Part shown: piece by piece, positions 19,791 to 31,128 of the stretch
Layout of the letters: each line of letters begins with the position of its first letter
Position numbering within the stretch: the first letter of the stretch is position 1
NCBI GenBank assembly: GCA_021201315.1
Contig: JAJQFG010000074.1
Location: 252 to 64,251, forward strand
Direction of reading: 5' to 3'
Source: Erysipelotrichaceae bacterium
Lineage (GTDB): Bacteria; Bacillota_I; Bacilli_A; Erysipelotrichales; Coprobacillaceae
DNA: 64,000 nucleotides
Notes under the pieces: generated by a model
Told to the model about the DNA's origin: nothing
Databases searched by the model: none
Seen by the model: only the letters and a program-made list of their open reading frames with translations
Program-made: the position numbers and the translations under genes

Positions 19791-19825
19791 GAGACATGAA
19801 TCTTTGATGGATTTATGTCTCTTTT
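19791..19825 (+). terminator. Terminator of the purine operon
   Basis: GAGACATGAATC (19791-19802) pairs with GATTTATGTCTC (19810-19821) around a 7-nt loop, with one G-T pair, followed by TTTT. Confidence 0.88.
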
Positions 19826-19857
19826 ATGTTATAATAATAAGTAAAGGAAGTGATATT

Positions 19858-21438
19858 ATGGGAATTTATCTTAATCCAGATAATACTGATTTTAAAGAAC
19901 TAAGAAATTCAGCTATATGTGTAGATAAATCTTTATTGATTGAATATACAAATAGTGTCATGAATACTAAAGATAAATTAATATGTGTTTCTAGACCTCG
20001 TAGATTTGGAAAAAGTACAGATGCTAATATGTTGGTGGCTTATTATTCTAAAGGTTGTGATTCAATTTCTTTGTTTTCAGATTTAAAAATATCACAAACA
20101 CCTACTTATAAGGATCATCTTAATCAACATAATATCATTTTTGTTAATATGCAAGAGTTTTACGATAATTCTGATACAATTTATGACATGAAAAATCGAT
20201 TGAGTCAGATGCTTTTAATAGAATTAAAACAAGTATTTGATAATATTTTTTATTATGATGATAAAGACTTGATTTTATCTTTAAAAAATATCTACGATCA
20301 AATTAAGCAAAAATTTATTTTTATTATTGATGAATGGGACTGCGTACTAAGAGATAAAGATGCTTCACAAAAAGATAAAACCACTTTTTTGACTTTTATG
20401 AATTCTTTATTTAAAGATCAAACATATATTGAATTAGTTTATATGACAGGTATTTTACCAATAAAAAAATATAGTAATCAAAGTGCTCTTAATAGTTTTG
20501 ATGAAATGTCGATGCTTAATCCTACACCTTTTGAAGAATTTATGGGATTTACTGAAAATGAAGTTATAGAGTTGTGTAATCAATATCAAATGGATTTTGA
20601 TGAAATGAAATTATGGTATGATGGCTATCATTTTAAAAATGGCATATCCATATATAGTCCTAGATCGATTAGTAAAGCACTTAGAATAGGATCATGTGGT
20701 AATTATTGGAGTAAGACATCTTCTTTTGAAAATTTAAGATATTATTTTAATCAAAATATAGATGGTATCAAAGAATCGATTGTACAATTATTAGCAGGTG
20801 ATATGATAAAAATTGATCCAGATATATTTAACAATGATGCTTCGGAAATACACAGTAAAGATGATGTATTAACTTTTTTAGTCCATTTAGGATATTTAGG
20901 ATATGATGAAACAGAAAAGAAAGTTTATATTCCTAATAAAGAAGTCTCAGATTCATTTGTATCAACAATGCGAAAAAGCAAATGGGAGAATGCTATATAT
21001 TTCCTAGAAAACTCTGATAAATTGTTTGAAGCTACTTGGAATCAAGATGAAGAAATTGTCGCTGAATATATTGAAAAAGCGCATCAGGAAGTATCCATAC
21101 TTCAATATAATGACGAAAATGCTTTAGCATATACAATATATTTAGCTTATATTACAGCTAAAGACTATTATACAGTCGTGCGTGAACTTCCAAGTGGGAA
21201 TGGTTTTGCAGATATAGCATTTATACCAAAAAATGATAAACCAGCATTATTAGTAGAACTTAAATGGAATAAGGATGTTCAGACAGCTATTAATCAAATC
21301 ATAGATAAACAATATCCAGCTGTATTAGAACACTATAAAGATAATTTATTGTTAGTTGGTATTAGTTATGAAAAAGATAGCCAATCTAAAGATCATAAAA
21401 AACATACATGTAAGATTATCCATCTAATGAATAAATAA
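19858..21438 (+). CDS. AAA-ATPase-like / PD-(D/E)XK nuclease-like protein, copy 1
   Basis: A 526-residue protein with an N-terminal AAA-ATPase-like domain (PF09820 type: Walker A in RPRRFGKST near residues 43-51, Walker B in FIFIIDEWD) and a C-terminal PD-(D/E)XK nuclease-like core (FADIAF...LLVELKW). The biological role of this family is unknown; it is often multicopy. An upstream in-frame ATG at 19804 lies inside the pur terminator, while ATG 19858 has AAGGAAGTG, so the latter is chosen. The gene is followed after 13 nt by a second, mostly identical copy that even repeats the ribosome site. Confidence 0.85.
   Translation: MGIYLNPDNTDFKELRNSAICVDKSLLIEYTNSVMNTKDKLICVSRPRRFGKSTDANMLVAYYSKGCDSISLFSDLKISQTPTYKDHLNQHNIIFVNMQEFYDNSDTIYDMKNRLSQMLLIELKQVFDNIFYYDDKDLILSLKNIYDQIKQKFIFIIDEWDCVLRDKDASQKDKTTFLTFMNSLFKDQTYIELVYMTGILPIKKYSNQSALNSFDEMSMLNPTPFEEFMGFTENEVIELCNQYQMDFDEMKLWYDGYHFKNGISIYSPRSISKALRIGSCGNYWSKTSSFENLRYYFNQNIDGIKESIVQLLAGDMIKIDPDIFNNDASEIHSKDDVLTFLVHLGYLGYDETEKKVYIPNKEVSDSFVSTMRKSKWENAIYFLENSDKLFEATWNQDEEIVAEYIEKAHQEVSILQYNDENALAYTIYLAYITAKDYYTVVRELPSGNGFADIAFIPKNDKPALLVELKWNKDVQTAINQIIDKQYPAVLEHYKDNLLLVGISYEKDSQSKDHKKHTCKIIHLMNK
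20313..21258 (+). repeat. ~946-bp direct repeat, copy A (within AAA copy 1)
   Basis: Matches 21901-22846 at a constant offset of 1,588 bp, with no mismatch seen by eye, while flanking sequence differs on both sides. It covers Walker B through the nuclease core. Confidence 0.85.
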
Positions 21439-21451
21439 AGGAAGTGATATT

Positions 21452-23023
21452 ATGGGAACCTATCTTAATCCAGGTAATACTGATTTTAAAGAACTAAGAA
21501 ATTCAGCTATATGTGTAGATAAATCTTTGTTGATAGAATATACAAATAGTGTCATGAACACGAAGGATAAATACATATGTGTTTCTAGACCTCGTCGATT
21601 TGGAAAAAGTACAGATGCTAATATGTTGATAGCTTATTATTCCAAAGGTTGTGATTCAATTTCTTTGTTTTCAGATTTAAAAATATCACAAACCAAAATG
21701 TATAATGAACATCTTAATAAACATCAAGTTATATTTATGAATATACAATCTTTTTATGACATGTCTGATTCAGTTTCTGAAATGAAGGAATTGATAATTG
21801 AAGAACTCATAGATGAAATCAGTCAAACATACAAAGTAGTATGTAAAAGAAAAAAATTACCTTTATTCTTAAATGCTGTATATCAACAAACACAGAATAG
21901 ATTTATTTTTATTATTGATGAATGGGACTGCGTACTAAGAGATAAAGATGCTTCACAAAAAGATAAAACCACTTTTTTGACTTTTATGAATTCTTTATTT
22001 AAAGATCAAACATATATTGAATTAGTTTATATGACAGGTATTTTACCAATAAAAAAATATAGTAATCAAAGTGCTCTTAATAGTTTTGATGAAATGTCGA
22101 TGCTTAATCCTACACCTTTTGAAGAATTTATGGGATTTACTGAAAATGAAGTTATAGAGTTGTGTAATCAATATCAAATGGATTTTGATGAAATGAAATT
22201 ATGGTATGATGGCTATCATTTTAAAAATGGCATATCCATATATAGTCCTAGATCGATTAGTAAAGCACTTAGAATAGGATCATGTGGTAATTATTGGAGT
22301 AAGACATCTTCTTTTGAAAATTTAAGATATTATTTTAATCAAAATATAGATGGTATCAAAGAATCGATTGTACAATTATTAGCAGGTGATATGATAAAAA
22401 TTGATCCAGATATATTTAACAATGATGCTTCGGAAATACACAGTAAAGATGATGTATTAACTTTTTTAGTCCATTTAGGATATTTAGGATATGATGAAAC
22501 AGAAAAGAAAGTTTATATTCCTAATAAAGAAGTCTCAGATTCATTTGTATCAACAATGCGAAAAAGCAAATGGGAGAATGCTATATATTTCCTAGAAAAC
22601 TCTGATAAATTGTTTGAAGCTACTTGGAATCAAGATGAAGAAATTGTCGCTGAATATATTGAAAAAGCGCATCAGGAAGTATCCATACTTCAATATAATG
22701 ACGAAAATGCTTTAGCATATACAATATATTTAGCTTATATTACAGCTAAAGACTATTATACAGTCGTGCGTGAACTTCCAAGTGGGAATGGTTTTGCAGA
22801 TATAGCATTTATACCAAAAAATGATAAACCAGCATTATTAGTAGAATTAAAGTGGAACAAGGATGTTCAGACAGCTATTAATCAAATCATAGATAGGCAA
22901 TATCCTGCTGTATTAGAACATTATAAAGATAATTTATTGTTAGTCGGTATTAGCTATGAAAAAGATAGTCAATCTAAAGAACATAAAAAACATACTTGCA
23001 AGATTATAAAGGTTACTGATTAA
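21452..23023 (+). CDS. AAA-ATPase-like / PD-(D/E)XK nuclease-like protein, copy 2
   Basis: A 523-residue paralogue of the preceding gene with the same domain order and motifs. The first ~77 residues are nearly the same. Residues about 78-150 diverge strongly in sequence and slightly in length. From FIFIIDEWD onward the proteins are identical almost to the end. This pattern suggests duplication followed by gene conversion, or replacement of the middle segment that sits between Walker A and Walker B. Function unknown. Confidence 0.85.
   Translation: MGTYLNPGNTDFKELRNSAICVDKSLLIEYTNSVMNTKDKYICVSRPRRFGKSTDANMLIAYYSKGCDSISLFSDLKISQTKMYNEHLNKHQVIFMNIQSFYDMSDSVSEMKELIIEELIDEISQTYKVVCKRKKLPLFLNAVYQQTQNRFIFIIDEWDCVLRDKDASQKDKTTFLTFMNSLFKDQTYIELVYMTGILPIKKYSNQSALNSFDEMSMLNPTPFEEFMGFTENEVIELCNQYQMDFDEMKLWYDGYHFKNGISIYSPRSISKALRIGSCGNYWSKTSSFENLRYYFNQNIDGIKESIVQLLAGDMIKIDPDIFNNDASEIHSKDDVLTFLVHLGYLGYDETEKKVYIPNKEVSDSFVSTMRKSKWENAIYFLENSDKLFEATWNQDEEIVAEYIEKAHQEVSILQYNDENALAYTIYLAYITAKDYYTVVRELPSGNGFADIAFIPKNDKPALLVELKWNKDVQTAINQIIDRQYPAVLEHYKDNLLLVGISYEKDSQSKEHKKHTCKIIKVTD
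21901..22846 (+). repeat. ~946-bp direct repeat, copy B (within AAA copy 2)
   Basis: Second member of the 1,588-bp-offset direct repeat; see copy A. Silent sites are also unchanged, pointing to very recent duplication or ongoing conversion. Confidence 0.85.
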
Positions 23024-23053: not shown

Positions 23054-23082
23054 TTGATAATTTCTGGAGATTGTGATACACT
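23054..23082 (+). promoter_or_regulatory. Promoter of the type III antitoxin RNA/toxin operon
   Basis: TTGATA and TACACT are separated by 17 nt. The predicted start near 23089 lies about 20 nt before the first 35-bp repeat. Confidence 0.6.
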
Positions 23083-23109
23083 ATATGTGGATGAAGAAAT
23101 CCTAAAAAA

Positions 23110-23214
23110 GCGGGAGTACCCTAGCCGTAGTGGGAATGAAAAAAGTGGGAGTACCCTAGCCATAGTGGGAATGAAAAAAGTGGGAGTACCCTAGCCATAG
23201 TGGGAATGAAAAAA
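23110..23214 (+). repeat. Three tandem 35-bp repeats
   Basis: Units lie at 23110-23144, 23145-23179 and 23180-23214. Units 2 and 3 are identical; unit 1 differs at two positions. The core is GGGAGTACCCTAGCC followed by TAGTGGGAATG and A6. There is no spacer between units, so it is not a CRISPR array. Confidence 0.97.
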
Positions 23215-23217
23215 GGG

Positions 23218-23245
23218 AAGGACTAGTATTAAAGTGCTAGTCCTT
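23218..23245 (+). terminator. Attenuating hairpin between antitoxin repeats and toxin gene
   Basis: AAGGACTAG (23218-23226) pairs perfectly with CTAGTCCTT (23237-23245) around a 10-nt loop. The T tract is short (CCTTTA), consistent with partial read-through that keeps toxin expression low relative to the antitoxin RNA. Confidence 0.8.
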
Positions 23246-23271
23246 TATCGTAAAGTTAGGAGGTATTATTG

Positions 23272-23769
23272 ATGGATGGTTGTAGATTAAAATTATATTG
23301 CATAGAAGATGATTATATTGATTATTTGCGTCAGTTTGATGATAAAGTACCATATAATAAACATAAAACCCGACCATTTGTTGGTATTGTTTATATCCAT
23401 CATGGTTATCGTTACTTTGCGCCATTGTCTTCTCCAAAACCAAAACATGTTAGAATGAATGAGCGTGCAATTGATATATGGAAAATTTCAAATGGAAGTT
23501 TAGGGATAGTGAATTTTAATAATATGGTGCCATGTCCGAGTGGGGTATTAACTGAGATACTTCCTACAGTAACAGATACGAAATACAAAATATTATTAGA
23601 AAATCAGATTAAAGCCATAAATAATGAAAGAGGATCATTGTTAAAAAAGGTGAGAAGATTTCATGATCATTACGAAAAAGGTCTTTTATCAATTAATGTA
23701 ATCAACAGATGTTGTGATTTTCAATTATTAGAAGAAAAATGTGATGAATATATGACTGTTAGTGTTTAA
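23272..23769 (+). CDS. toxN: ToxN/AbiQ-family endoribonuclease toxin (type III TA)
   Basis: A 165-residue protein of the ToxN/AbiQ fold. Family stretches are visible in order: YIDYLRQFDDKVPY (15-28), RPFVGIVY, YFAPLSSPKPKH (48-59) and LGIVNFNNMVPCP. The S-S-P-K at 53-56 aligns with the T-S-P-K active-site block of known ToxN, and K25/K32 lie where a catalytic lysine is expected. It should cleave mRNA and its own repeat RNA at A-rich sites; known relatives cause abortive phage infection. ATG 23272 has AGGAGG with 8-nt spacing; a TTG at 23269 is possible. The repeat RNA lies directly upstream. Confidence 0.9.
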   Translation: MDGCRLKLYCIEDDYIDYLRQFDDKVPYNKHKTRPFVGIVYIHHGYRYFAPLSSPKPKHVRMNERAIDIWKISNGSLGIVNFNNMVPCPSGVLTEILPTVTDTKYKILLENQIKAINNERGSLLKKVRRFHDHYEKGLLSINVINRCCDFQLLEEKCDEYMTVSV

Positions 23770-23773
23770 ATGA

Positions 23774-23833
23774 ATATGGGTTTCTGGCCGCTTGAGGCTG
23801 GATGTGCAGAATGATGCGGGCCCATATCTTTTT
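23774..23833 (+). ncRNA. GC-rich structured RNA or complex terminator after the toxin gene
   Basis: ATATGGGT (23774-23781) pairs with GCCCATAT (23820-23827) and is followed by T5. Inside are two smaller hairpins, GGCC/GGCT and GCA/TGC, giving a three-way-junction-like fold. Its GC content stands out from the flanks. It could simply terminate toxN, or be a small RNA processed from that transcript. Confidence 0.5.
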
Positions 23834-23854
23834 ATATATTTTTCATAAAAACAC

Positions 23855-29240: not shown

Positions 29241-30140
29241 ATGAAGTATATATTGCTAGATACAAACATCCTCATTTATCGTGAAGGTGAAAAAGAATTA
29301 AATAGTGAAATTCAAACACTTTCAAGACTTTTGATGGACTCTACTGAATATCATTTATGTATTCATCCATTGACTATGGATGAATTATCTAAACATAAGG
29401 ACCAATCACAAAAAGAAGTTATTCAATCAAAAGTAAGTACTTATAAAATATTAGAACAACCACCTAAACCATCACTAGAATTCAATATGATTCTAAGTCA
29501 AAATAACTCTCATGACTATGTTGATAATAATTTACTTTATGCTGTATATAAGAATTGTGTAAGTTACTTAATTACTAATGATAAGGGAATGTTGAAAAAA
29601 TCAAAAAAGATAAATATCGAAAACAGAGTTTTATCAATATCACAAGCAATTAATATTGTTTCAGTTGATGATCCTATTATACAAAAAACACCATCATTTG
29701 TTTGTGAAGAATATTTATACAATGTTGATACCTCTGATTCTTTTTTTGATTCATTAAGAAATGATTATTATCAATTTGATAACTGGATTAAAAAAAAGAA
29801 ACTTGAACATAGCAAAGCTTGGCTGACATACACAACTGATAATAAAGTCGGTGCATTTCTCAATTTAAAAATTGAAAATGAATTTGAAATATATAATGAT
29901 TTTATAAAACCATTTAAAAATGGTAAAAGATTAAAAATTTCCACCTTCAAGGTTCAGGATAATGGAAAATTAATTGGAGAAATATTCATTAAAATTATAT
30001 TTGACACTGCCTTAAAAAACAATCTTAATGAAATTTATGTTACAATTTTTGATAAACAAGAGAAATTAATAGATTTGTTCAAAGAATATGGATTTTTTTA
30101 TACACGTATAAACATACAAAAAGAAATGATGGAAGCGTAA
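29241..30140 (+). CDS. PIN domain - GNAT-like fusion protein
   Basis: A 299-residue protein. The N-terminal ~135 residues form a PIN nuclease: LLDTN (D7), the acidic MDELSKH (E about 48), SHDYVDN and LITNDKG supply the usual metal-binding acidic residues. The C-terminal part (about 170-299) has a GNAT-like order with strands KVGAFLNLKI and LKISTFKV, then GEIFIKIIF and an LIDLFKEYGF helix-turn near the end. An RNA target is plausible. It is the first gene of a three-gene run with EVE-like and ASCH proteins. AAGGAGG precedes the ATG. Confidence 0.72.
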   Translation: MKYILLDTNILIYREGEKELNSEIQTLSRLLMDSTEYHLCIHPLTMDELSKHKDQSQKEVIQSKVSTYKILEQPPKPSLEFNMILSQNNSHDYVDNNLLYAVYKNCVSYLITNDKGMLKKSKKINIENRVLSISQAINIVSVDDPIIQKTPSFVCEEYLYNVDTSDSFFDSLRNDYYQFDNWIKKKKLEHSKAWLTYTTDNKVGAFLNLKIENEFEIYNDFIKPFKNGKRLKISTFKVQDNGKLIGEIFIKIIFDTALKNNLNEIYVTIFDKQEKLIDLFKEYGFFYTRINIQKEMMEA

Positions 30141-30178
30141 CAAGTGAAGGTGTTTATGTAAGAACTATAAAAGAGAAT

Positions 30179-30724
30179 ATGACAAATTATCCAATAATCA
30201 AATTTGATAACCAAAATATCTATATTATCCCAATCCAAAATCATTATGCTCATATGTTATTTCCTGATGTTTTTGCAAACAACCAATTATCAATTAATGA
30301 TTTAAATGGTACATCTACTTATAGTAATTGTATAAAAAAAGCATATATATCAAAAAGTAAAATATCAAAATTAAAGAAAAATGATATTTTAATATTTTAT
30401 GCTAGCCAAGTAACAAAAAAGATTGTTTGTATTGGTATTATAGATGATGTTTTTATTTCAAATGAAGAATCATATGATGTTTTTAAAAATATTGTATCTA
30501 GAAGAACTGTTTACTCAGATGAGTATTTAGAAAAAGCTTACCAAGAAGGATATTTAGTTATCATGTTTAAATATTTTGTTAACTTAAAAAATCATATCCC
30601 GCTTGATTTAGCTATACATAATGGAATAATAAAAAGCGCTCCCCAATCAATTCAAAGTATGAGTATTGAAAATTTCAAAAAAATTGTTGAATTAAGTGGA
30701 AGTGAGAGACAAATTAAAATATAA
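30179..30724 (+). CDS. EVE/PUA-like domain protein
   Basis: A 181-residue protein. The section SKISKLKKNDILIFYAS...KIVCIGIIDDVF fits the core of PUA-like/EVE-type folds that read modified nucleobases. The N-terminal YIIPIQNHYAHMLFPD segment is also found with such modules. It has no obvious catalytic motif. It follows the PIN-GNAT gene by 38 nt and precedes the ASCH gene by 29 nt in the same direction, so it is probably a functional partner. The ribosome site is weak. Confidence 0.6.
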   Translation: MTNYPIIKFDNQNIYIIPIQNHYAHMLFPDVFANNQLSINDLNGTSTYSNCIKKAYISKSKISKLKKNDILIFYASQVTKKIVCIGIIDDVFISNEESYDVFKNIVSRRTVYSDEYLEKAYQEGYLVIMFKYFVNLKNHIPLDLAIHNGIIKSAPQSIQSMSIENFKKIVELSGSERQIKI

Positions 30725-30753
30725 TCTAAATAATGTAGAAAGGAGATTATATT

Positions 30754-31128
30754 ATGTGCAAAGTATTGCTACCAATTAAACCAAAATACGCAAAAGAAAT
30801 TTTTGAAGGTACTAAAACTATTGAATATCGAAAAAAGAAATTTAAAAGAAATGATGTTGATAAAATTGTTATATATGTTACTTCACCAATAAAAAAAGTA
30901 ATAGGAGAAGTTGAATTATTAGATATTGCTGTCGATACTCCTTTAATTATTTGGGACAAAACATTTCAAAATGGAGGTATTGATAAGCAATCGTATGATC
31001 AATACTTTAAAAATCACGACCTAGCTGTAGCTTATATTCTTGGAAAAACTAATATTTATTCTGAAAGCAAAAGTTTGAAAGATTTAAATATAAATTATTA
31101 TCCTCAATCCTACGTTTACTTAGATTAA
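30754..31128 (+). CDS. ASCH domain protein
   Basis: A 124-residue ASCH (PUA-related) protein. The motif G-T-K-T-I-E-Y-R (about residues 23-30) inside YAKEIFEGTKTIEYRKKKF, then DKIVIYVTSPIKKVIGEVEL, is the classic ASCH core. Some ASCH proteins (YqfB) hydrolyse N4-acetylcytidine. Here the lysine is kept but the threonine nucleophile position is Glu, as in the larger RNA-binding ASCH group, so binding rather than hydrolysis is more likely. It is the last gene of the PIN-GNAT cassette and has AGGAGA upstream. Confidence 0.82.
   Translation: MCKVLLPIKPKYAKEIFEGTKTIEYRKKKFKRNDVDKIVIYVTSPIKKVIGEVELLDIAVDTPLIIWDKTFQNGGIDKQSYDQYFKNHDLAVAYILGKTNIYSESKSLKDLNINYYPQSYVYLD

Follow-up and report, generated by a model that had tools for sequence, protein, structure and literature searches.

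Sequence evidence for a chromosomal ToxIN-family type III toxin-antitoxin system in an Erysipelotrichaceae bacterium

Does the segment from 23054 to 23769 of the window (the whole stretch of 64,000 nucleotides that was analysed) encode a type III toxin-antitoxin system, and is its antitoxin RNA of a new kind? The original prediction classified the segment as a ToxIN/AbiQ-like locus, and this classification is right: it is very likely a chromosomal type III toxin-antitoxin system of the ToxIN family. The locus is a canonical member, with its novelty confined to the repeat sequence, which is own to every cluster. It is a clean addition to the ToxIN family from an Erysipelotrichaceae-related lineage and leaves our knowledge of type III systems unchanged.

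Gene order and the toxin

Type III toxin-antitoxin loci are defined by their gene order (PMC5086642), and the segment has exactly this order from 5′ to 3′: a promoter-like site, three repeats, a hairpin, an AGGAGG motif and toxN, all of them located where they had been predicted. The nearest relative is the locus L004 in the Erysipelotrichaceae bacterium U.2_7 MAG (JAJQGQ010000159, genome G021), the toxin of which is 74% identical. The features are as follows.

23054..23082, + strand: promoter-like site TTGATA-17 nt-TACACT, second hexamer preceded by TG (consensus scan, 9/12; kept in L004)
23110..23144, + strand: toxI repeat copy 1, with C1-G16 as outer pair of stem 1 (sequence)
23145..23179, + strand: toxI repeat copy 2, with U1-A16 as outer pair of stem 1 (sequence)
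23180..23214, + strand: toxI repeat copy 3, same sequence as copy 2 (sequence)
about 23217..23246, + strand: hairpin between toxI and toxN, putative intrinsic terminator acting as attenuator, T tract weak (folding; equivalent in L004)
23258..23263, + strand: ribosome-binding site AGGAGG, 8 nt before the ATG at 23272 (sequence)
23272..23769, + strand: toxN, predicted type III endoribonuclease toxin of 165 amino acids (PF13958, PADLOC, PDB sequence matches, active site)

Both the AGGAGG motif and the 165-residue open reading frame are thus present as predicted, and the comparison of the product with Pfam, PADLOC and PDB sequences is decisive for its assignment to the ToxN/AbiQ family. The profile search that had been proposed as a check matched the Pfam family ToxN_toxin (PF13958) over the full profile length with an E-value of 8.9e-41 (140 bits, cut-off 25). 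The PADLOC model for AbiQ was matched with an E-value of 3.9e-39, and the PDB sequences 4ato, 2xd0, 7d8o and 4glk, all of them ToxN/AbiQ proteins of solved structure, were matched with 1.9e-19, 1e-17, 2.7e-17 and 1.2e-11, respectively. The proposed check also named CptN and TenpN, but membership in these families was not found: PF13958 was the only Pfam model above its cut-off, and no other type III toxin family was reported by PADLOC or NCBIfam. NCBIfam gave no model match for toxN at all, which does not count against the membership.

The active-site block LSSPKPKH, another part of the prediction, is present in the product. Alignment with the relatives showed that the catalytic positions K33, T52, S53 and K55 of the P. 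atrosepticum toxin correspond to R34, S53, S54 and K56 in the window, in keeping with a ToxIN toxin. Arginine at the Lys33 position, as in R34, is likewise found in E. coli ToxIN clusters 4 and 5 (PMC8860590), and serine at the Thr52 position is found in AbiQ, Ser and Thr being interchangeable (PMC5086642). Tyr29 of P. atrosepticum ToxN has no aligned residue in the window toxin, nor in many of the relatives.

The promoter claim was borne out in part. A consensus-like site is present and is also kept in L004, but with 9 of 12 consensus positions it is a weak match that alone is not clearly above chance; the promoter consensus scan revealed nine sites of such quality in the region, with 5.9 expected (sd 1.9). 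Between array and toxN lies an inverted repeat of the Rho-independent terminator type, with a predicted fold of −17.8 kcal/mol (z −5.5; none of 200 shuffles was equally good), which agrees with the predicted hairpin. Its T tract, predicted to be weak, consists of TTT only, and the hairpin is therefore missing from the list of the terminator scan. L004 has an equivalent hairpin between array and toxin gene.

The toxI array and its predicted pseudoknot

The original prediction of three spacerless 35-bp repeats ending in A6 was confirmed at 23110-23214. The three copies are 35 nt long, carry A6 at the 3′ end and follow each other with no spacer; an additional A6 is located immediately before copy 1. 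In the 700 bp upstream of toxN the tandem score is 71, compared to a maximum of 11 in 200 shuffles. Short repeats arranged in tandem immediately before the toxin gene are a hallmark of the ToxIN family. A genome-wide search found the repeat only at this locus, and the Rfam search gave nothing real (best E 1.8), with no ToxI model matching. The scan of viral contigs for the repeat motif found none, and hence gave no sign of a phage-encoded mimic of this ToxI.

The RNA had been suggested to be a new antitoxin variant. It does have a repeat sequence of its own, but ToxI repeat length and sequence are particular to each toxin cluster (PMC8860590, PMC5086642), and an unfamiliar repeat is therefore a weak argument for novelty; the variant is new only in this trivial sense.

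For the structural comparison, repeat positions were numbered as in PMC8860590 and the register across arrays was assigned by hand; the P. atrosepticum ToxI row serves for orientation only. The window repeat fits an H-type pseudoknot with stem 1 Y1 G2 G3 / C14 C15 R16 (YGG/CCR), stem 2 CCC/GGG, and U12, G21 and U22 at the stem junction (U·U:G). In the hand-set register this pairing is possible in all window copies. Within the array, C1-G16 of copy 1 is changed to U1-A16 in copies 2 and 3, and such a compensatory difference among the copies of a single array supports the pseudoknot there. All 26 units compared from related arrays keep the three stem 2 pairs (hand-set register, one row for orientation only), and the middle pair is C-G, U-A or G-C across these units, a covariation that depends on the same hand-set register. 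Only 17 of the 26 units have a canonical outer pair in stem 1, and this pair is thus not general to the family. The window repeat shares its predicted pseudoknot plan, its U-U:G positions and its A-rich tail with ToxI and with the arrays that belong to related toxins.

Pseudoknot prediction on a single repeat, also proposed originally, showed that H-type pairing is possible, but the best-pseudoknot scores of the window repeats are only modestly unusual, with 6 and 11 of 300 shuffles scoring as high or higher. Thermodynamic folding of single repeats, which cannot represent pseudoknots, yielded z-scores of +0.3 and +0.5 against shuffles and nothing beyond. Since the single-repeat scores are only modest evidence, we place the weight on the compensatory change and on the relatives.

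Three other arrays (L033, L035 and L036) each contain three units that have diverged in sequence, with both predicted pseudoknot stems still paired. In L033, stem 2 reads CTC/GAG, CTT/AAG and CGC/GCG in the successive units. Judged by their predicted pairing, such diverged-but-paired units amount to naturally occurring evidence that ToxI forms a pseudoknot.

Besides the toxN of the window, the genome (2.99 Mb, 136 contigs) contains two further ToxN genes, L002 (C51:59908-60414) and L003 (C83:49173-49670), whose arrays consist of 35-nt and 36-nt repeats, respectively, unrelated in sequence to those of the window. The L002 array is interrupted by a run of 100 N that is probably a gap in the assembly. 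With three ToxIN loci whose repeats are unrelated, the genome offers a convenient natural example of RNA antitoxins that exist in parallel and are possibly insulated from each other. A reading that goes further combines two proposals: that the window ToxI is a structurally distinct sub-class, with stem 1 cut to three canonical pairs, a G-G mismatch and an extra A in place of the fourth pair (4-13) that normally closes this stem, and A19 changed to U, and that the genome keeps three mutually insulated ToxIN pairs. We consider the two together rather doubtful; if they were true, the species would be a natural set for the divergence of orthogonal RNA antitoxins.

Proposed mechanism, genomic setting and role

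As far as sequence can tell, the anatomy of the locus supports the standard type III scheme. One promoter would drive a transcript of three 35-nt toxI repeats, and the hairpin would end most transcripts before toxN, so that antitoxin RNA would exceed the toxin. ToxN, presumably an endoribonuclease preferring A-rich sites, would cut the precursor in the A6 tracts, releasing 35-nt monomers. Each monomer would fold into an H-type pseudoknot, bridge two ToxN molecules and block the active sites of both, the most likely assembly being a 3:3 ring. If the ToxI supply were lost, for instance by phage shut-off of host transcription, ToxN would be free to cut RNA, which would stop growth and phage propagation. 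We infer cleavage, complex, toxicity and phage defence of this locus from the family. Its role is probably protection against viruses, by analogy to the characterised relatives ToxIN and AbiQ, which act as abortive-infection systems (PMC5086642).

The toxIN locus is located between purB and a LysR gene. In the window, toxIN is accompanied in this interval by two copies of the ATPase gene, a remnant of a MerR gene and a gene for an Ig-like protein; on the purB contig of G021, toxIN occurs together with one ATPase gene, a MerR gene and an extra gene. The corresponding interval of the congener G022 has only a truncated ATPase ORF, a short fragment, and no toxIN. Because the gene content differs, the interval is a site of gene turnover. 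This variation among congeners would fit a selfish retention role, and plasmids can be stabilised by type III systems (PMC5086642), which might suggest that the system mainly serves to stabilise the island (addiction) or acts in a stress response, with the molecular mechanism unchanged. Addiction and phage defence are inseparable by sequence, but with the characterised ToxIN and AbiQ being abortive-infection systems (PMC5086642), we regard a main role other than phage defence as somewhat unlikely.

It is far less probable that the locus is a degenerate, inactive relic in a decaying island and no longer a toxin-antitoxin pair. The gene debris in the interval, with the MerR remnant downstream and the duplicated AAA-ATPase/PDDEXK genes upstream, would be in line with decay, as would the weak promoter and the lack of the locus in G022. 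Against it, the toxin ORF is intact with its catalytic positions kept, repeat pairing has been preserved through compensatory change, and a close relative keeps the gene at 74% identity together with an intact array. It is extremely improbable that the 35-bp repeats have nothing to do with toxN and are instead CRISPR-like or protein-binding iterons. Operator arrays can take the form of short tandem repeats before a gene, but the window repeats lack spacers, their predicted pairing is that of a ToxI pseudoknot and they are joined at A6. The rest of the genome contains no copy of them, and their placement and layout correspond to those of the arrays preceding many independent ToxN genes.

Directly upstream of toxIN (19804-23023) are two tandem, near-identical AAA-ATPase_like/PDDEXK_9 genes (PF09820, PF08011). 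G021 and G023 have one such gene at the corresponding place, which is truncated in G023. Further downstream (29241-31128) are small genes, including those for an ASCH-domain protein and for a PIN-plus-acetyltransferase-like protein that matches the PADLOC candidate defence family PDC-M11A (4.8e-97).

Relatives and comparison with known systems

Relatives of the ToxIN locus on plasmids (Lactococcus, Fusobacterium and Sutcliffiella, Bacillaceae being among them) encode toxins that are 36-46% identical; their repeats, 36-39 nt long, follow the same plan and carry A-rich tails. Two phage records encode ToxN genes 34-37% identical to the window toxin, and the scan of viral contigs for close relatives of this toxin found none.

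More unusual than the ToxIN locus itself are side observations on an RNA downstream of toxN and on ToxN relatives that have just one ToxI unit or lack an array. Upstream of the ToxN homologues L010, L016, L017, L026, L021 and L034 there is apparently a single ToxI-like unit with a hairpin instead of a tandem array. In the homologues L029-L032 and L005-L008 the active-site block is kept, and the 450-700 bases before the gene contain no array of repeats; these toxins are candidates for lacking a type III antitoxin or having a diverged one.

A conserved RNA element is predicted directly after toxN in the window (23773-23835) and also in L066-L070 and L072-L075. In it, a closing stem of the type GAUAUGGG/CCCAUAUC and two hairpins inside this stem form a three-way junction; a U tract is also present, and seven of the predicted pairs of the element are changed on both sides (covariation). 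Of the 43 family genomes, 10 (five genera) contain the element, never in more than one copy; the controls gave zero matches, and no Rfam family matches it. Several relatives have a promoter-like site before this RNA; in the window the end of toxN replaces its upstream part.

Among the known systems, CptIN and TenpIN share the general type III layout with the window locus but differ in the toxin, which here matches only PF13958. The best PDB match, 4ato, is the ToxN of the Bacillus thuringiensis ToxIN system, which is of the same family and has the same gene order. The Bacillus thuringiensis toxin cleaves in A runs (A/AAAA; PMC5086642), which fits the A6 junctions of the window array; the window toxin has diverged from it in sequence, and we infer its RNase specificity.

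The E. coli ToxIN (PMC8860590; 7d8o) has the same pseudoknot plan including U12, U22, G21 and the two central stem 1 G-C pairs. The window repeat differs from it at position 19, with U instead of A, and at pair 4-13, where G and G face each other as a mismatch and position 13 is preceded by an extra A, in place of the canonical pair of E. coli ToxI. The nearest toxin in the plasmid collection is the ToxN/AbiQ-family toxin of Lactococcus lactis plasmid pCV56A (NC_017483), which is 46% identical; it is preceded by three 36-nt repeats with a GG/CC stem 1, a CTC/GAG stem 2 and an A-rich tail, and differs from the window locus in the 36-nt instead of 35-nt unit, the other stem 2 and its location on a plasmid. 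Closest of all is L004 of U.2_7: its repeat is near-identical, and it shares the promoter-like site, the hairpin and the ATPase gene upstream, but it has two repeats instead of three and an extra gene following toxN.
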